From positions 1 through 23,679 of IMG/VR virus record IMGVR_UViG_3300017763_000193: a stretch of DNA of 23,679 nucleotides; one strand, 5' to 3'. Origin of the DNA: a virus. Positions 5,320 to 23,677 of the stretch are shown here, in pieces. Position 1 is the stretch's first letter, and each line of letters opens with the position of its first letter. The notes below the pieces were generated by a model. That model saw nothing but the letters and a program-made list of their open reading frames with translations, was not told where the DNA came from and did no database searches. A program made the position numbers and the translations under genes.

Positions 5320-5354
5320 AAAAAAAAGCGTCAGCCCAGTTAAGGACTAACGCT
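5320..5354 (-). terminator. Strong intrinsic terminator after the capsid gene (Tphi equivalent)
   Basis: Read on the minus strand, AGCGTTAGTCC pairs with GGGCTGACGCT across a TTAACT loop, an 11-bp stem with two G-U pairs, followed directly by eight T residues. On the plus strand the two G-U positions become A-C mismatches, so the structure is optimised for leftward RNA. It lies 11 bp beyond the capsid stop codon, the position of T7 Tphi after gene 10. It is likely to reduce transcription into the tail genes. Confidence 0.92.
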
Positions 5355-5365
5355 CTAGAATTAAA

Positions 5366-9443: not shown

Positions 9444-9468
9444 TTTAAGTCCTCTTATATGCACCCAA

Positions 9469-11151
9469 TTATTCGCATTCTTTCTGTCCTGTTTCAGGAT
9501 TTATGTAACACGCTTCTGCTTTTTCTTTTTCTTCTTTTACTTCGTTTAATATTCCATACCTTTTTCCATCGGCACGGAAGGTAGTAATCCCCTTGCATCC
9601 TGATTTCCAAGCATCATAGTATAAGGTTTTAAATTCATCGTAAGTTACATCAGAACCCACATTACAAGTCTTAGAAACTGCACTGTCTATATACTTAGAA
9701 GTAAGTGCTAAAACATTTAAGTGGTCTTGTGCAGATATTTCATTTGCAGTCCTACCATGTACACCCATTGTGTAGGCATAATCCTCAACTCTCTGTACCT
9801 CATGTCCATCAAACTGTTGGATAGTCCTGTCGTAGTACAAAGAGAATGGTGGTTCTATACCTGAAGAAACATTATCGGCAGTCAATGAGATTGTCCCTGT
9901 AGGAGCAATAGAAGTCAGATGTGAGTTTCTGATACCCTGCTTCTCAATCATTTCCTGAACCCAATCACTCAAGGTAGAAACAAACTTCCCCTTCATGTAC
10001 TGGTATTGGTCATATAAAGGAAAAGCACCTTTCTCTGACGCTAAGTCTGATGAGGCTGCATAGGAATAATCTCTCAGTGTCTGAAGTACTTCTTCTGTGA
10101 ATGACATAAACTCTGGAGAGGCATAAGGCTTACCACACATTTCTGCAGCATTAGCCAAACCTGTAATACCAAGCCCCATCCTACGCTTGTTCTTAGCTTC
10201 CTGCTCCTGCTCTGGTAGAGGGTAAATGGTTCTGTCTATGACATTATCCATCGCTCTGACCACTGTGTAGATGTCCCCAGTAAACAGACCAAAGTTGAAT
10301 TTTTTGTCTGTTACGTATTTTGTCAGATTGAATGACCCAAGTAGACACGCACCAAAGGGTGGTAGAGGCTGTTCCCCACAGGGATTGGTAGCTTCTATAG
10401 TTTCACAGTAATAAAGGTTGTTCTTCTTGTTTATGGTATCAATGAATAAAACCCCAGGTTCTGCCCAGTCCCATGTGCTCCTCATAATCATGTCCCAGAG
10501 AGCCACAGGGTCTACTTCCTTGTAAACTTTACCTTCATACTTCAAGGGAAAAGGTGTCTTGTTTTCTAGACATTCCATGAACTCATCAGTAACTCCTACA
10601 GAGATGTTGAAGCCTGTTAGAGATGAACCATCGTTCTTTGCAGTAATAAACTGCTCAATGTCAGGATGGTCAACCCTCAATACTCCCATCTGTGCTCCTC
10701 TCCTGTGACCAGAAGAAGCTATAGTCTGACAGATAGAGTCATAGATATTCATAAAAGACACTGCCCCTGAAGCTCTACTGTCTAGGGATTTGATTCGGTC
10801 ACCTCTAGGTCTAAGCCTACTGAAATCATATCCGATACCTCCACCTCTCCTCATGGTTTCTGCAGCCTGTGTAGCTCTGCCCATAATGGAGTCCATAGAG
10901 TCATCAATAACCCCTGAGACAAAACAGTTGTAGGCAGTGGTTTGTCTAGCTGCTCCCATAGCATTTTGTACTCTACCTGCAGGGAGAAACCTCATACTTC
11001 TGAGGACATCTTTAAAATCCTCAAAATGCATAGGAGTATCTTTTAGTGAACTGGCAATCCTTACAATTTTACTGTAGAAGTCTTCACCTGTTTGTCTGTA
11101 TTTCTGTGAATCTATTTCCTCAGAAATTGGTAAAGTCATGCCATAGTTCAT
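9469..11151 (-). CDS. nrdJ: Ribonucleotide reductase, class II (adenosylcobalamin-dependent) type
   Basis: This encodes 560 residues. It reduces ribonucleotides to deoxyribonucleotides for phage DNA synthesis. Seen motifs: YNCFVSG with the first redox Cys (C76), the radical-site triad in NPCGEQPLPPFGACLLGS (N256, C258, E260), WDWAEPGVLFID, the late AWKSGCKGITTFRADG, and a C-terminal Cys pair (C548, C559) that would serve as the reductant shuttle. NPCGEQPLPPxGACLLGS is the class II signature. No small R2 subunit gene accompanies it, consistent with class II, which would depend on host or environmental cobalamin. The ATG overlaps the DUF3310 gene stop (ATGA) and has AGGAG 8 nt upstream. Class II RNR genes are common in marine T7-like phages. 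Confidence 0.93.
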   Translation of the reverse strand: MNYGMTLPISEEIDSQKYRQTGEDFYSKIVRIASSLKDTPMHFEDFKDVLRSMRFLPAGRVQNAMGAARQTTAYNCFVSGVIDDSMDSIMGRATQAAETMRRGGGIGYDFSRLRPRGDRIKSLDSRASGAVSFMNIYDSICQTIASSGHRRGAQMGVLRVDHPDIEQFITAKNDGSSLTGFNISVGVTDEFMECLENKTPFPLKYEGKVYKEVDPVALWDMIMRSTWDWAEPGVLFIDTINKKNNLYYCETIEATNPCGEQPLPPFGACLLGSFNLTKYVTDKKFNFGLFTGDIYTVVRAMDNVIDRTIYPLPEQEQEAKNKRRMGLGITGLANAAEMCGKPYASPEFMSFTEEVLQTLRDYSYAASSDLASEKGAFPLYDQYQYMKGKFVSTLSDWVQEMIEKQGIRNSHLTSIAPTGTISLTADNVSSGIEPPFSLYYDRTIQQFDGHEVQRVEDYAYTMGVHGRTANEISAQDHLNVLALTSKYIDSAVSKTCNVGSDVTYDEFKTLYYDAWKSGCKGITTFRADGKRYGILNEVKEEKEKAEACYINPETGQKECE

Positions 11152-16753: not shown

Positions 16754-17174
16754 TATATAACTTTTTGACTGCCTCCATCTGTTTGGGTTTGGGTTTTTCA
16801 TGAAGCCAACTGGCAGGGATGCTTTTATCTGCATAGTTATATCCAAATCTTTCACACCACATCCCATAAGTTGTCTTCGATTTCTTACCAATCTTTGTTC
16901 TCGAATTACTGAAAACAAATCTGATATCTAAATAAGGATTTTGGTTTTTAATAAGTTTATGTTTAGACCTGTCAGAACTGAGAAACTGTCCTTTAGTCTC
17001 TACAATTATTCCGTTAGGTAATACAAAGTCTGGTTTGTACTTACTGGTAGGCTTCCTATACTCCACCCAACCTGGAGGTTCATACATAAACTTGACTCCA
17101 AGTTGGGTTAATTCATCAGCAATTTTTTCCTCTAAACCACTTCTATACCTGTTATGTTTAAAAGTCTTCTTCAT
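16737..17174 (-). CDS. Endonuclease I, Holliday-junction resolvase (T7 gp3-like)
   Basis: This encodes 145 residues from the ATG at 17174 (MKKTFKHNRYRSGLEEKIAD). A TTG two codons earlier is possible but unnecessary. Catalytic residues match T7 endonuclease I: E15 in SGLEEK, D49 in YKPDFVLPNG, E59 and K61 in IIVETKGQF. The later RFVFSNSRTKIGKKSKTTYG is also conserved. It resolves branched replication intermediates and degrades host DNA. It overlaps the SSB gene by 17 nt and the amidase gene by 17 nt. No strong ribosome binding site is visible, so translation is probably coupled to SSB. Confidence 0.96.
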   Translation of the reverse strand: MKKTFKHNRYRSGLEEKIADELTQLGVKFMYEPPGWVEYRKPTSKYKPDFVLPNGIIVETKGQFLSSDRSKHKLIKNQNPYLDIRFVFSNSRTKIGKKSKTTYGMWCERFGYNYADKSIPASWLHEKPKPKQMEAVKKLYNGKKK

Positions 17175-17763
17175 CTGCAAATACTAACTCAGAAGACTCC
17201 TGTTCCTCTGCTACATATCCATCAGTTTTATCAAAACCAAAGGACGAACCATCAGAACCTCCTCCCTTGACCAGTTCAATTACTTGGACTGCCTTGAGTC
17301 TAAGTGTTACTCCTGCACCTACTGCAGCTACATAAAATGGTACTAAGTCTGCTGACACACGCAGAGTTGAACCACCCCAAATACTGTCAAGTCCTTTAAT
17401 AATTTTTCCTTGAGAATCAAATATCTTTGGACTCATTTCGATGGTTCTTCCATCTTTAGTAGTTATCTTTGCCTTCATCTTAAACTTGAAAACATAACGA
17501 TTAGTTTTGTTACCATCTTCGTCAGTTTCGATGAAGTAAGGTAGTTCTGCTTCCTTGGCTTTTTTACCTTCAGGAATCATTTCCTTGGCTTGTTCCAAAG
17601 ATGAATTTATTTTTTCGATAATAGGTGTAGCTTCATCTTCAGATAAAGAAAGACTCACCTTATACTCACCAACAGGATTAAACTTTGTGTCAGGGTTAAT
17701 CAAGTGAGGGTAAATCGCTACTCCAGAGGGAGTAACTATATTTTGAAAATTTTGTTTTGCCAT
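17158..17763 (-). CDS. Single-stranded DNA-binding protein (T7 gp2.5-like)
   Basis: This encodes 201 residues (T7 gp2.5 is 232). The N-terminus (NIVTPSGVAIYPHLINPDTK) and the beta-rich core fit the OB-fold of gp2.5. The C-terminus is the acidic tail SSELVFADEEDF ending in Phe, the segment that in T7 contacts DNA polymerase and helicase and competes with DNA. A proper AGGAGG lies 10 nt before the ATG, inside the 41-aa ORF, whose stop overlaps this start (TAATG). It protects single-stranded DNA and promotes annealing. Confidence 0.93.
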   Translation of the reverse strand: MAKQNFQNIVTPSGVAIYPHLINPDTKFNPVGEYKVSLSLSEDEATPIIEKINSSLEQAKEMIPEGKKAKEAELPYFIETDEDGNKTNRYVFKFKMKAKITTKDGRTIEMSPKIFDSQGKIIKGLDSIWGGSTLRVSADLVPFYVAAVGAGVTLRLKAVQVIELVKGGGSDGSSFGFDKTDGYVAEEQESSELVFADEEDF

Positions 17764-17888
17764 TAATCTAAATCCTCCTGTTCAAAACTATTTTCCAGTA
17801 TATACCCATAGGACTCTACGGCTTTAACCATGATATCTATAGGTATCGGAATGTTTAATTCCTCAAGTAAATCTAAAGTATCTTCCAT
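17763..17888 (-). CDS. 41-aa acidic small protein coupled to SSB
   Basis: This short frame starts with an ATG at 17888 (MEDTLDLLEELNIPIPIDIM), continues VKAVESYGYILENSFEQEDLD, and stops at a TAA that overlaps the SSB start codon (TAATG). GGAG lies 8 nt before its ATG, a good ribosome binding site. The protein is acidic, with a leucine-rich first helix and a second hydrophobic helix (VKAVESYGYILEN). It is the first gene after RNA polymerase, directly below a strong RNA hairpin. I do not recognise it. It could act as a small regulator or as a leader peptide that couples translation to SSB. Confidence 0.7.
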   Translation of the reverse strand: MEDTLDLLEELNIPIPIDIMVKAVESYGYILENSFEQEDLD

Positions 17889-17900
17889 AGTATTTTCTCC

Positions 17901-17947
17901 ATAGGGCTAGACCAACAGGGCATCTGTCAGTCTAGTATGCACCCTAT
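17901..17947 (-). promoter_or_regulatory. Long bulged RNA hairpin between RNA polymerase and SSB genes (RNase III-type candidate)
   Basis: In leftward RNA, CTAGACUGACAG pairs with CUGUUGGUCUAG (12 bp, two G-U pairs) around a 5-nt AUGCC loop (17907-17935). An outer AUAGGG/CCCUAU stem of 6 bp adds to it across a one-sided 6-nt bulge. The G-U pairs would be A-C mismatches in rightward RNA, so the fold belongs to the minus-strand transcript. No T-run follows, so it is not a terminator. T7 has an RNase III site just after gene 1, and this is the same position. The base of the stem touches the GGAG ribosome binding site of the 41-aa ORF. Confidence 0.8.
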
Positions 17948-17973
17948 TAATTTGTTAGTGTATTCAATGCCTT

Positions 17974-17983
17974 AGTGGATTGT
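17974..17983 (-). promoter_or_regulatory. ACAATCCACT element after the RNA polymerase gene
   Basis: This is a close variant of the repeated ACTATCCACT element (8 of 10 identical), immediately after the RNA polymerase stop codon and followed by AAGG, upstream of the hairpin and the SSB operon. It is a plausible phage promoter core for the middle genes. The rest of the gap (17889-17973) is accounted for by the hairpin and a ribosome binding site. Confidence 0.5.
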
Positions 17984-20400
17984 TAAGCAAAAAAGAAACT
18001 ACTGCCTTCCACTACATCAATGTCTAGGTCACCCTTCTCAGGAGTGGCAGTAATCGCATGATGTTTATCTTCAGGAAGGATGTCCAACAGGTCATTCTTA
18101 AAGTCTTCTAAAACATCACATTGTTTATACATTTCTACAAAAGCTTTCCGTAAACACCACCATAATTCACCTGCATCTGCAGCATGAGTTCCATAACTAT
18201 CGTGAACCATAGCAAAGTTATGAATACCACACTGTTGTGCTACATTAATTGTAATCATCATATGTGATGCATCAATGCTATGAACAAAGTTAGGGCTTAT
18301 TCCGTTTGCCTGTCTGTTTTTATCAATTTTTCCAGTTTCTTTATAAATCATTGGTTGAAAAACTGAGCCTAACAGTTTGGTTTTAATTCGGTAGGGCTTT
18401 GTTGCTTTGTATGCCTGTAGTACTGGAAAGTTTACTGGTGTATCCCACCGAATAGGTAAACCTTCAGAACTAGCTACTCTTGATGCCTTTTGTAACCATG
18501 CCATTGCATCAGTTGCAGCATGAACTACTTCAGCTATGGAGTCCCATATAATCTTTGCAAGAAAGATAGAAGCCCTGAATGCATTGTCACCAAAAGGATG
18601 CTTATTACCTTTCTCTTTTTGTTCAACCAAGTGCTCCATTACAAAGTCAGAAAAAGAGTATTGTTTTCCACCATAAGGTAACACCATGCATGGACGTTTA
18701 GTACACCCTCTCTTCACACCAAATTCTAACCATTGTTTAGCGAAAGGTGAGTCCATAGTTTTTAATTTTTCTGTCACCTTATCGGCTACCTTCTGGTAGA
18801 TGTCTTGAGGTTCATCCATAGGAATAAGATTTACCTCTTTTCCTGTAGTTGTACTTCTCAACATAGCTGCAAAATGCTGAAGACCATTACAAGAACCGTC
18901 GGCAGCAATTGGTAGATGAGAAATAAACCCTTCACCCTGTTCCATCCACCCTTGCCACTCTTTACAGAAAGCTAGGAACTGAAACGGAGAGTCAGCTTCT
19001 TTTGCCCACCACAGGTCACCTAGAGGGTCTTTGGCACATGATAGTATTCTGTCCGTATTATCTACCACCCAGTTAACTCTTTCCTCCAGAGATACCTTGT
19101 CAAACCCAAAAGTGTTTGCTCCCTGTATGGCGAGATAAGAAGCACTGTCAGAGTCAATAGGCTTACCCTCAGAGAACATGAGCAAAGCTTTACTGAAGTC
19201 AGTCCCTTGAGGATTTAGGAAGTTAGGGACTGCATAAATACGTCCTCTAAAATCCAACTGGTAGACCATATAGATTGCTTCCTCATCCTTAAACTTGTCA
19301 GCCACCTGAATTGTCTTTCTCAGGAGTAGTCGCTTGGAGTCCAGACGATTGTTCTCTGTATGGATAATCACAGCTTCCCTCTTCCAATGGGTTCTGGCTT
19401 CCTTGTTGGTAGCTATATCCAATGGCTTGACAGGGATTTCATAGTTCTCTGACGGAGGTAGACTTGGAATCTGAATGCCTGTATCCCAGATTTGCTTGAG
19501 CACATCCAAGATAAACTTGTTGACCATAAAGCCTGTCCTCTGCATCGCATTCACAGCCCCATAGACTTGAGGCATATCAAAATGTTTTAGTTCAGAGAGA
19601 TACCTGTGGTTATCTGTCTTCACCAAAGTTATCTGACGAATATGATGCGTGTGGTATCCACCATCGTAAGGAGAAGTCCAGTCCTTCGGAGGAGAAACAC
19701 AAGGGTAGAACTCTGGCTTCATCACTTCCTTGAACGCATCCAAGTCCTTAATGGCTTTCATGGTTTCATCTGAAGGCAACAGGAGTCTCTTCTTCTTTCC
19801 TTCCTTCATCATTATCTTATGACTCAGCAGTCCTGTGTGTTGGATTGTTAAGTCAATCAATGCATTACCTACCAAAAGTCTCTCCCTCTGTGTCCATGAA
19901 GTCCACTCATTGCCATCTCTTCTGGATGCTTCAATAAGTTTTCTTCTTTTGTAACTGTAGGAGGAACTTCTTGATTCCAAATCCTTCATGACAACATTCA
20001 GAAGGTGAGGATTGTTTTCCTCAAAAGTACGTATCCGTATTTCATCTTCCAATGCCATGCCCAGAGCTATTGAACTGGACGTATAAGCCCTCTGTCTGGT
20101 GATTTGGTTGAGTGCTACCCTCAGAGTAATAACGGCTATTACAGAGGGTTCTAGTGTTTCAATCATGACTGCACCAGTGGCTGCTTTTCCTGCTCTGCCT
20201 TCCATACAATCCTTAACGTAATCGGCAATGGCTTTCTCCAAAGCTTCCAGAGTAACACTCATTAAATACTGTCCGTATGAAGTGGTGCTCTCCTGTCCTC
20301 TGTCTGCTTTCTTGAGATTGTTCTTGTGGTATCTTGTGACACCACTCTCACGCATCTCTTTTTCCAACAATACCTGTCTGTTACTTACGTTGTATTCCAT
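17983..20400 (-). CDS. Single-subunit DNA-dependent RNA polymerase (T7 gp1-like)
   Basis: This encodes 805 residues (T7 is 883). Catalytic residues are visible: D501 in IAADGSCNGLQHF, K568 and Y576 in TKRPCMVLPYGGK (the T7 K631/Y639 spacing of 8), and D733 in MVHDSYGT. QLDFRGRIYA (381-390) and NGISPNFVHSIDASH (699-713) are also family hallmarks. The end SSFFFA matches the T7 FAFA foot. The promoter-reading specificity loop (about 671-700, RIKTKLLGSVFQPMIYKETG) differs from T7, so its promoter should differ. GGAG lies 10 nt before the ATG. It would transcribe the middle and late genes. Confidence 0.98.
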   Translation of the reverse strand: MEYNVSNRQVLLEKEMRESGVTRYHKNNLKKADRGQESTTSYGQYLMSVTLEALEKAIADYVKDCMEGRAGKAATGAVMIETLEPSVIAVITLRVALNQITRQRAYTSSSIALGMALEDEIRIRTFEENNPHLLNVVMKDLESRSSSYSYKRRKLIEASRRDGNEWTSWTQRERLLVGNALIDLTIQHTGLLSHKIMMKEGKKKRLLLPSDETMKAIKDLDAFKEVMKPEFYPCVSPPKDWTSPYDGGYHTHHIRQITLVKTDNHRYLSELKHFDMPQVYGAVNAMQRTGFMVNKFILDVLKQIWDTGIQIPSLPPSENYEIPVKPLDIATNKEARTHWKREAVIIHTENNRLDSKRLLLRKTIQVADKFKDEEAIYMVYQLDFRGRIYAVPNFLNPQGTDFSKALLMFSEGKPIDSDSASYLAIQGANTFGFDKVSLEERVNWVVDNTDRILSCAKDPLGDLWWAKEADSPFQFLAFCKEWQGWMEQGEGFISHLPIAADGSCNGLQHFAAMLRSTTTGKEVNLIPMDEPQDIYQKVADKVTEKLKTMDSPFAKQWLEFGVKRGCTKRPCMVLPYGGKQYSFSDFVMEHLVEQKEKGNKHPFGDNAFRASIFLAKIIWDSIAEVVHAATDAMAWLQKASRVASSEGLPIRWDTPVNFPVLQAYKATKPYRIKTKLLGSVFQPMIYKETGKIDKNRQANGISPNFVHSIDASHMMITINVAQQCGIHNFAMVHDSYGTHAADAGELWWCLRKAFVEMYKQCDVLEDFKNDLLDILPEDKHHAITATPEKGDLDIDVVEGSSFFFA

Positions 20401-20458: not shown

Positions 20459-20504
20459 GGCTTTGACATCAGCCAGATTGGTTTGTAGTATGAACTTATT
20501 CAGT

Positions 20505-20514
20505 AGTGGATTAA
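20505..20514 (-). promoter_or_regulatory. TTAATCCACT element in the integrase-RNA polymerase gap
   Basis: This variant keeps the ATCCACT core, reads leftward, and lies at the foot of the inverted repeat at 20514-20551. It is weaker than the others because only 8 of the 10 positions match. Confidence 0.35.
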
Positions 20515-20551
20515 GGGACTAAGGAGATAAATTATATACCCCTAAGTCCCT
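20514..20551 (-). promoter_or_regulatory. Hairpin between integrase and RNA polymerase genes
   Basis: On the minus strand AGGGACT and AGTCCCT form a perfect 7-bp stem, extended inward by AGG/CCT after one mismatch, around an AT-rich loop of about 16 nt. No long T-run follows, only CCCTTAATCC, so termination would be weak. It may attenuate lysogeny-region transcripts before the RNA polymerase gene, be an RNase III-type site, or be a protein-binding palindrome. Confidence 0.5.
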
Positions 20552-20587
20552 CAACCTAGTAATCACCTCATAGTGAGTGTCACAATG

Positions 20588-21592
20588 TCACGCATTCGTC
20601 ACACTCCTTGTTCCTTGATTGCTAGGCTCAAGAACCTTAACGGCTTGCTCCAAGTTTGTTGGGCAGAGATGAGCATATCGTAACGTCATCTTGAGGTCTT
20701 CATGTCCCAACCATTCCTTCACAACCTGTAAAGAAACACCTCTTTGTACTAAACGGCTTGCACAAGTATGTCGTAAACAATGAATCACAAACTGATTATC
20801 ATCGTCTAGTCCCATAATTGTTTTCATCCGTTGCCATGCCCATCGCAACTTATGGTAGGGCAGTTTCATATTGCCGAATCTCCTTCTAAAAATTTCTTTT
20901 GCTCTGGAAGTAAGAACTACAGTCCTTGCTTTTCCACCTTTCGTTTCCCACAGGGTCAGTCTGTTGCCATTCAGGTCACGTAGCGAAACATGATTGTTTT
21001 CACCTACACGCATCCCTGTGTCTATGAGGAACATGAATATGTCTCTTTCATCTTCCATCCCAAGTTGAGTTAAGACTTTCCACATCACAGGCTCTTCCTC
21101 TTCAGTGACATATCTCACTCTCCCCTTGGTTTCCTGTTCCCAATCAATCATCAGCTTCTTGTCTATCCATCCCCTTGTTAGGGCAAACTTTGCAGCTTTG
21201 GATATGACACAAAGTTTCCTATTGATTGTACCATTCTGGTTACCCTTGTATTTATAGTGGGCAACAAGATTATCTACCATCTCCTCATTAAGATGAGTAA
21301 GAGGTGTGTTGACTCCGACAAAATCAATAATCTCTTTTGAAATTGCCTGAGCTTTCATTCCCCAATCTGAGTTTGTCCAGTACTTGTCTCCTGTTCGTTT
21401 CAGAAGAGAAGCAATGGTCATCTCATCAGTAGAAGTGAAGTCAGATGGTATCGGTTTGCCAAGCCTATAGCATTCCTCAACCATCTTCAGCACTTCATTG
21501 GCTTGCTTTTCGGTGGTAAAGTTCTGTCGAAACGTGATGCCCTTTTTACGAACATCAACTTGCCAACTACCACCACGCTGTCTTACTGGCAT
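20588..21592 (-). CDS. int: Tyrosine recombinase (phage integrase)
   Basis: This encodes 334 residues. The start MPVRQRGGSWQVDVRKKGIT is the basic three-strand arm-binding-like domain of phage integrases. A SAM-like core-binding domain covers about residues 55-155. The catalytic residues are R195 (DTGMRVGE), a Lys in the ETKGGKART hairpin (K219 or K222), H271/R274 (HCLRHT), H297 (GHED) and Y306 (LRYAHL). It would integrate and excise the phage genome at an att site. AGGGG lies 6 nt before the ATG, and the gene follows the MarR-like gene by 8 nt, suggesting co-expression. I found no tRNA-like attP core beside it. Integrases upstream of RNA polymerase occur in marine T7-like phages. Confidence 0.96.
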   Translation of the reverse strand: MPVRQRGGSWQVDVRKKGITFRQNFTTEKQANEVLKMVEECYRLGKPIPSDFTSTDEMTIASLLKRTGDKYWTNSDWGMKAQAISKEIIDFVGVNTPLTHLNEEMVDNLVAHYKYKGNQNGTINRKLCVISKAAKFALTRGWIDKKLMIDWEQETKGRVRYVTEEEEPVMWKVLTQLGMEDERDIFMFLIDTGMRVGENNHVSLRDLNGNRLTLWETKGGKARTVVLTSRAKEIFRRRFGNMKLPYHKLRWAWQRMKTIMGLDDDNQFVIHCLRHTCASRLVQRGVSLQVVKEWLGHEDLKMTLRYAHLCPTNLEQAVKVLEPSNQGTRSVTNA

Positions 21593-21600
21593 AGTTACCC

Positions 21601-21960
21601 CTATTTATTAATGGTTTCATATAATGAAGTGGCAAAGCGTTCTCCTTTCTTTGTCAGCTTAACCAGTTTACGTCTTCGTTCCATAGGGTCTTCATAGGCT
21701 TCTATAAGTCCATGTCCCTTTTCTTTATGTCTAGACCAATCACCAAGATAAGCCACATTACGACTTACTGAGGATTGTGCTAGACCTAGTTCCTTACCAA
21801 TGTCTTGCATCTTGATTGGTAAAGGACTCTTAGCCACAACAAGAAAGACTGCTATGGTCTGTGCTTGTATTTCAGGGTCAATCCCTCTCATTTGCTCTAT
21901 CGCCTTCAATAGCATGGAAATTTCTAGTTGTTGCTCCGTAGCTTTTAATCGTGTCTGCAT
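21601..21960 (-). CDS. MarR-like winged-helix transcription regulator
   Basis: This encodes 119 residues. A helix-turn-helix is visible in MQDIGKELGLAQSSVSRNVA (about residues 50-69), followed by a wing with DPMERRRKLVKLTKKGERFA (about 91-110), the D-x-R-x-x-x-V-x-LT-x-x-G pattern of MarR-type proteins. The N-terminal helix (LKATEQQLEISMLLKAIEQM) could dimerise. The ATG at 21960 has GAGGA 6 nt ahead. Its position directly before integrase suggests control of integration or of the early promoter. A cI-like repressor is not seen in the window, so this is the main candidate for a lysogeny regulator, which is inference. Confidence 0.85.
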   Translation of the reverse strand: MQTRLKATEQQLEISMLLKAIEQMRGIDPEIQAQTIAVFLVVAKSPLPIKMQDIGKELGLAQSSVSRNVAYLGDWSRHKEKGHGLIEAYEDPMERRRKLVKLTKKGERFATSLYETINK

Positions 21961-22114: not shown

Positions 22115-22136
22115 TAACACCTCCATAATATGTGCT

Positions 22137-22146
22137 AGTGGATGAT
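22137..22146 (-). promoter_or_regulatory. ATCATCCACT element upstream of the 78-aa ORF and MarR-int
   Basis: This keeps the ATCCACT core of the repeated element (8 of 10 match ACTATCCACT). It lies 23 bp before the ATG of the 78-aa ORF and just before its ribosome binding site, in a gap (22115-22245) without genes. The upstream flank is strongly AT-rich (TTATATTATATC). Confidence 0.4.
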
Positions 22147-23251: not shown

Positions 23252-23268
23252 AAGTAGATTTTAGACAC

Positions 23269-23299
23269 AAAAAAACCTTACTAAAATTAATCAGTAAGG
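23269..23299 (-). terminator. Intrinsic terminator after the 90-aa gene
   Basis: On the minus strand CCTTACT and AGTAAGG form a perfect 7-bp stem with a 10-nt loop, followed by seven T residues. It lies 37 bp past the stop of the 90-aa gene. On the plus strand the stem is followed by CTCTTTT, so it may also act weakly in the rightward direction. Confidence 0.88.
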
Positions 23300-23320
23300 C
23301 TCTTTTAAATTAGATGTATT

Positions 23321-23330
23321 AGTGGATAGT
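23321..23330 (-). promoter_or_regulatory. ACTATCCACT element between the 90-aa gene and its terminator
   Basis: This is an exact copy of the repeated 10-bp element, reading leftward, 5 bp after the stop of the 90-aa gene and 22 bp before the terminator stem. If it is a phage promoter, its RNA would meet the terminator at once, so the terminator may act mainly on host polymerase. Confidence 0.55.
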
Positions 23331-23640: not shown

Positions 23641-23677
23641 AACTACCCACTGTTTAAGTATGCCACAGTGGATAGTT
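23641..23677. repeat. Inverted repeat containing the ACTATCCACT element
   Basis: AACTACCCACTG (23641-23652) and CAGTGGATAGTT (23666-23677) are inverted copies with one mismatch in 12, separated by 13 bp. The right arm is the leftward element; the left arm is an opposed near-copy. It lies 33 bp upstream of the 90-aa start, at the window edge. Confidence 0.65.
23667..23676 (-). promoter_or_regulatory. ACTATCCACT element upstream of the 90-aa gene
   Basis: This is an exact copy of the repeated element reading leftward, 59 bp before the ATG of the 90-aa gene, and forms the right arm of the inverted repeat at 23641-23677. Confidence 0.55.

Follow-up and report, generated by a model that had tools for sequence, protein, structure and literature searches.

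The question raised by this locus is why a strong stem-loop lies between the RNA polymerase (RNAP) and SSB genes of a T7-like marine phage, directly in front of a small open reading frame. The window, i.e., the whole stretch of DNA that was analysed, covers 23,679 nt (positions 1 to 23,679 of virus record IMGVR_UViG_3300017763_000193). The initial annotation read the stem as an RNase III-type processing or folding element controlling a 41-aa ORF and SSB. The part of that interpretation that stands is the conservation of stem and ORF and their forming a unit with SSB; RNase III processing is the part left without support. We consider it very probable that the whole is explained by a middle-gene promoter of a T7-like phage, from which the message opens with a stem-loop at +1 and continues into the 41-aa protein and SSB. 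An apparent regulatory stem is thus recast as the start of a promoter-driven message, and it is the comparison of relatives that tells the two apart.

Gene organization of the locus

The features of the locus, with the evidence for each, are as follows:

17983..20400, minus strand: gene of a T7-type single-subunit RNAP (805 aa); PHROG 414, E 1e-266; PDB T7 RNAP, E 5e-148
18382..18384, minus strand: RNAP codon 673 (Lys), equivalent to T7 N748, pairing with promoter -12 to -10 GGG; covariation and mapping to T7/T3/K11
18355..18357, minus strand: RNAP codon 682 (Gln), equivalent to T7 Q758, pairing with promoter -8; covariation and mapping
17967..17980, minus strand: oriented repeat ATCCACTNNGGCAT, 2 nt past the RNAP stop codon; co-oriented copies in the window genome, relatives and LUZ100
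17933..17949, minus strand: predicted phage-RNAP promoter (-17 to -1), TAATAGGGTGCATACTA; recurrence in its own genome and relatives, covariation with RNAP residues
17942..17947, minus strand: outer-stem 5' arm ATAGGG, within the predicted promoter and so present only in read-through RNA; folds and comparison of relatives
17932, minus strand: predicted transcription start (+1), G; 17-mer register against the T7 promoter, conserved helix opening with this base in 20/20 relatives
17910..17932, minus strand: predicted 5'-terminal hairpin GACUGACAG-AUGCC-CUGUUGGUC; folds and conservation
17901..17906, minus strand: outer-stem 3' arm CCCTAT, adjoining the ribosome binding site; pairing limited to GGG-promoter lineages
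17897..17900, minus strand: GGAG ribosome binding site of the 41-aa ORF; sequence
17763..17888, minus strand: gene of a conserved 41-aa small protein; 40-64 aa homologues in relatives, purifying selection, profile matches in roseophages
17158..17763, minus strand: gp2.5-like SSB gene, its start overlapping the stop of the 41-aa ORF by 1 nt; PHROG 112, E 4e-37
9455..9471, minus strand: second predicted promoter TAATTGGGTGCATATAA, 3' of the ribonucleotide reductase gene and before the head-tail adaptor and capsid genes; no +1 hairpin

The RNAP and SSB identities were confirmed by PHROGs, and the gene set follows the T7 order (RNAP, gp2.5-like SSB, endonuclease I, lysozyme, primase-helicase, DNA polymerase). 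By gene content and order the phage fits a Pelagivirus-like member of the Autographiviridae. An integrase gene (20588-21592, minus strand) and a gene of a transcriptional regulator, phrog_9665 (21601-21960, minus strand), lie beside the RNAP gene; as in HTVC019P and LUZ100, a temperate lifestyle is probable. A tRNA/tmRNA search of the window found none.

Folding of the stem

On the minus strand, positions 17947-17901 fold into a 6-bp outer stem (ATAGGG/CCCTAT), a one-sided 6-nt bulge (TGCATA) and a 12-bp inner stem, CTAGACTGACAG/CTGTTGGTCTAG, which includes two G-U pairs and closes a loop of ATGCC. The folding energy is -21.6 kcal/mol, as against -17.0 for the complementary strand, whose pairing is interrupted; the strong, bulged, strand-specific stem of 18 bp described in the initial annotation is therefore real as a fold. 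It ranks among the few strongest local folds in a scan of 9,454 segments, and the 231-nt region around it folds 3.5 sd below shuffled sequences, beating 200 of 200. The window gave no Rfam match at the gathering cut-off, and a long-range repeat search returned no repeat involving the stem. The 41-aa ORF begins 12 nt past the stem behind GGAG; its frame is conserved and its TAA overlaps the ATG of the SSB gene by one base, as had been reported.

A predicted T7-type promoter after the RNAP gene

The comparison of relatives places a different element over the upstream part of this stem. Searches with the RNAP retrieved relative contigs at 69-99% identity; among named phages, those of Pelagibacter come closest, at about 45%. 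A T7-type promoter was taken to be a 17-bp element with an AT-rich -17 to -13 segment, a specificity block at -12 to -7, an AT-rich -4 to -1 segment and a purine at +1. The sequence TAATAGGGTGCATACTA (17949-17933, minus strand), overlooked in the initial annotation, is a predicted promoter of this type, with the layout TAATA/GGGTGC/ATACTA and a G at +1, an arrangement found also in 20 or more relatives; besides the layout, it has several co-oriented copies and matches the RNAP specificity loop. When set in register against the T7 promoter (TAATACGACTCACTATA followed by GGG), L019 reads TAATACCCACTCCTATA followed by GACC, most relatives read TAATACCCACCATATTA followed by GACC, and the window reads TAATAGGGTGCATACTA followed by GACT.

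Perfect copies of the 17-mer number exactly three in each of five near-complete genomes (G001, G005, G006, G014 and G015) and two in the window (9455-9471 and 17933-17949); all point in the direction of the genes and none is opposed. A reversed-pattern control with at most one mismatch gave 0-2 scattered matches per strand, and an 18-base pattern with 3 mismatches was found twice in the window against 0.09 expected. The first scan, carried out with the short pattern TTAATAGGGTGCA and 3 mismatches, had been chance-like, the register becoming clear only from the relatives. The -12 to -7 hexamer is constant at every copy within a genome, and is GGGTGC, CCCACC or CCCTGC between genomes. A typical gap in the ORF-bearing relatives reads ATCCACTNAGGCATTTAATACCCACCATATTAGACCATCAGAATGTTCTGGTGGTC..GAGG..ATG. 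In the L033-L046 group (about 70% identity), as in the named Pelagibacter phages, the gap is short and contains no ORF; in the L033 group a promoter-like sequence is kept, and the ORF and the stable hairpin are both missing.

A hairpin anchored at the predicted +1

Given this register, the outer 5' arm and the "bulge" of the stem appear to be promoter DNA, with structural conservation only from 17932 inward. A helix of at least 4 bp starts from the predicted +1 in 20/20 distinct relatives. When the downstream bases were shuffled (2000 trials), the mean was 2.65 of 20 and the maximum 8, and no other anchor position gives a helix in all 20. In a set of 16 sequences, 83% of cells pair, compared with 21-47% when the sequences are slid. 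Compensatory change, which the initial annotation had proposed to look for in the stem, was found in the inner stem only: 11 cells carry a change on both sides versus 5.1 in shuffles (16 sequences), and one inner-stem pair occurs as AU, CG, GC, GU and UG, while the number of pairs changed on both sides does not exceed shuffles. The outcomes named in advance as counting against the unit, i.e., a stem with neither covariation nor conservation and stop codons in the 41-aa frame, were both absent.

Across relatives the hairpin ranges from 10 bp down to 4 bp. No strong +1 hairpin occurs at the remaining promoters of these genomes, so initiation does not require one. The feature is most likely the 5'-terminal hairpin of a promoter-initiated transcript, for which we infer G17932 as the exact start.

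The 41-aa small protein

Among 22 distinct nucleotide versions of the ORF, pooled pN/pS is 0.48, with values mostly of 0.04-0.5 in informative pairs; two near-identical pairs give values near 1, on few changes. This pattern indicates that the 41-aa ORF is under purifying selection. The core motif is YxxxGxPxPxDxxxxA(V/I)xxYGF, and the C-terminal tail is variable. The protein had no match above cut-off in Pfam, NCBIfam or PHROGs. When 15 genomes were searched with a profile of these versions, the only matches at E <= 1 were unnamed ORFs lying between RNAP and SSB in two roseophages, CRP-114 (E 7e-5) and CRP-227 (E 1e-3); the roseophage homologues stop 3-8 nt before SSB.

A wider set of small proteins is linked from Pasto to LUZ100, BB8 and Lo5R7ANS (E 5e-4 to 2e-5) and from LUZ100 to further rhizobiophages, its members lying directly upstream of SSB wherever gene order was read. 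Profile-profile comparison of the window group with this set gave a probability of 87 over 20 columns; that the window group belongs with the LUZ100 set is suggested by this match, and is the weakest step of the family assignment. An AlphaFold model consists of two short helices (pLDDT 73, pTM 0.41) and is too weak for a fold search. As a candidate counterpart of T7 gp2 (the host RNAP inhibitor), the protein was assessed by the database searches and the pLDDT 73 model. Judging by its position, one might guess that it acts in host takeover or together with SSB. What is now defined beside SSB is a conserved protein, about 40 residues long, that has no name in current databases.

Alternative explanations

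The stem had been noted to sit where T7 has an RNase III site; on a processing reading, the 18-bp bulged stem in read-through RNA would be cleaved to separate the RNAP and SSB messages. The long stem does form in read-through RNA of GGG-type genomes, where ATAGGG pairs with CCCTA in every such lineage (the window clade, L018 and L031), and in T3 an RNase III site, R1.1, is annotated between the neighbouring genes 1.05 and 1.1, beginning at the initial transcribed sequence of a phage promoter. CCC-type genomes never carry a matching GGG partner, however, and the outer stem is absent from all of them; a compensatory role for it was dropped for this reason. ATAGGG is absent from RNA started at +1 because it is part of the promoter, and by this comparison the outer stem is a lineage-specific possibility in read-through RNA rather than a conserved element. 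A site of the T7 R1.1 type would be a conserved long irregular stem of about two helical turns; the conserved helix here is 4-10 bp, only 4 bp in L088, L104, L026 and L029, and T7/T3 R1 is better matched by a longer stem at 20509-20556, just upstream of the RNAP gene. Processing by RNase III as the point of the stem is disfavoured because the outer stem is lineage-restricted and the inner stem shrinks, and we regard it as improbable. A related proposal makes use of both structures: the long-stem form in read-through RNA and the form with the inner stem only, in RNA begun at the promoter, would differ in stability or in access to GGAG, and the small protein and SSB would rise only after the phage RNAP has taken over. 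It draws on the CCC partner beside the ribosome binding site in all the GGG lineages; yet this partner is also found in L023/L024, unpaired there with the promoter, most relatives (with CCC promoters) cannot make the outer stem, and GGAG lies outside both stems. We hold little expectation that it is correct.

It is likewise improbable, in our view, that the inverted repeat acts purely at the promoter, as DNA or as an initial transcribed sequence for polymerase escape, and not as RNA structure. The near invariance of the outer bases (GACC/GACU at +1 to +4) would suit such an effect, but the distal arm covaries as the sequence changes, and the other promoters of the same genomes begin with GAGG, GATA or GGTA and have no hairpin. 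As to the ORF, translation of the 41-aa frame might matter for SSB in itself, rather than through its product, i.e., as a leader peptide. The overlap of its stop with the SSB start and the variable C-terminal tail are in keeping with this; the pN/pS values of informative pairs, the conserved PxPxD core and the roseophage homologues that stop before reaching SSB argue against it, and the leader peptide is rather unlikely.

Proposed mechanism

With a +1-anchored hairpin as the preferred reading, the following series of events is envisaged. Early transcripts would supply the phage RNAP, which would bind TAATAGGGTGCATACTA just past its own gene and start at G17932. The resulting message would carry the stem-loop from +1, followed by the 41-aa protein, SSB, endonuclease I, lysozyme and replication genes. 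We infer for the hairpin a stabilising role, in that it most likely keeps the 5' end of the message double-stranded and slows 5'-end-dependent decay, and it would leave the ribosome binding site just behind it open. Literature searches with combined terms turned up no usable report on stability and 5' hairpins in T7. Ribosomes would enter at the GGAG site to make the small protein, and because its stop overlaps the SSB start, translation of SSB is probably coupled to that of the small protein.

Covariation of polymerase and promoter

The polymerase, too, supports the promoter. In an alignment of 27 RNAPs (about 805 columns, with N-terminal overhang columns set aside), residue 673 is the sole column that splits GGG promoters (Lys) from CCC promoters (Asp/Glu/Gln), and residue 682 is the sole column that splits -8 G (Gln/His) from -8 C (Arg/Lys). 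Residue 198 had also split GGG from CCC in the first comparison and failed once the L033/L040 group was added. Alignment with T7, T3 and K11 equates residue 673 with T7 N748 and residue 682 with T7 Q758; in T7, N748 contacts -10/-11 and Q758 contacts -8 (PMC5937735). The same code is obeyed by K11 (promoter GGG, Lys) and T3 (CC, Asp), whose promoter sequences were taken from records. On the tree the GGG label changes at least three times, on well-supported branches, with one gain and two losses being possible. The RNAP C-terminus and the adjacent promoter could have been moved together by recombination between relatives, but not the distant promoters, which switch too.

It is reasonably probable, in our judgement, that these marine relatives record repeated natural rewrites of the T7-type promoter code. 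On this reading, one residue (the N748 equivalent, Asp/Glu/Gln to Lys or the reverse) changed and every promoter of the genome switched with it, from CCC to GGG or back, on at least three occasions among relatives of 70-90% identity, with a second residue (the Q758 equivalent) tracking -8; the operon would in addition carry a small-protein family, unnamed and linked to SSB, that occurs in T7-like phages of Alpha-, Beta- and Gammaproteobacteria. The known T7/T3 specificity difference at N748/D749 involves the same residue and the same promoter positions, with Asp accompanying CC as in L020; unlike that case, the change is seen here within wild relatives of 70-90% identity, with Lys/GGG as in K11. 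What is added is an unusually clear natural polymerase-promoter covariation and an unnamed small-protein family. The relatives form a natural test of how a phage with a single polymerase may change promoter specificity without dying, and they suggest ready-made orthogonal polymerase-promoter pairs.

Comparison with known systems

A T7-type promoter with a 5'-terminal stem-loop is an already known kind of arrangement. Folding at the 5' end is likewise seen for the transcripts from T3 phi1.05, K11 phi1.05 and T7 phi2.5. T3 phi1.05 and K11 phi1.05 resemble the present locus in having a 17-bp T7-type promoter a few bases past the RNAP gene, a strong transcript hairpin at +1/+2 and a small gene next; they differ in that this gene is of another family, SSB lies far downstream, and the sequences are unrelated beyond the promoter core. 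The T7/T3 R1.1 and other RNase III sites share a stem-loop in the region after RNAP, and differ from the short helix anchored here at the promoter +1. ONT-cappable-seq has placed phage promoters of LUZ100 in the corresponding gap ahead of SSB (PMC10134795); phi2/phi3 lie between RNAP and SSB as well, in the form of a tandem pair with another promoter sequence and specificity. Within that gap LUZ100 also has gp14, a homologous small ORF, and it shares the repeat ATCCACTNNNGCAT with the present phage.

Other repeats and hairpins

The 14-mer ATCCACTNNGGCAT occurs on the minus strand at 17967-17980 and 23660-23673, and in weaker form at 20498-20511, 22130-22143 and 23314-23327. Relatives have 3-6 copies per genome and Pseudomonas phage LUZ100 has 10 forward copies, two inside the mapped host promoters P1 and P2 and several 2-6 nt past stop codons; the repeat could serve as an operator for the MarR-type regulator, or as a signal in RNA. 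A long irregular stem (20509-20556, minus strand), which folds at -26.3 kcal/mol (z -4.6), occupies the T7/T3 R1 position between the integrase and RNAP genes, and in most relatives a strong hairpin, often ATCCAC..GTGGAT, precedes the RNAP start by 12-26 nt. Just past the major head gene there is a 13-bp stem with a U run (5325-5356, minus strand), like the T7 late terminator T-phi, and a further terminator-like stem with a U run lies among the early genes (23268-23307, minus strand). In Bordetella phage BB8 (L109, 300-400), an 11-bp perfect inverted repeat, TTCCGGCTGGG/CCCAGCCGGAA, surrounds a promoter-like GGGGTTGCACATATGGATAA past the RNAP gene.
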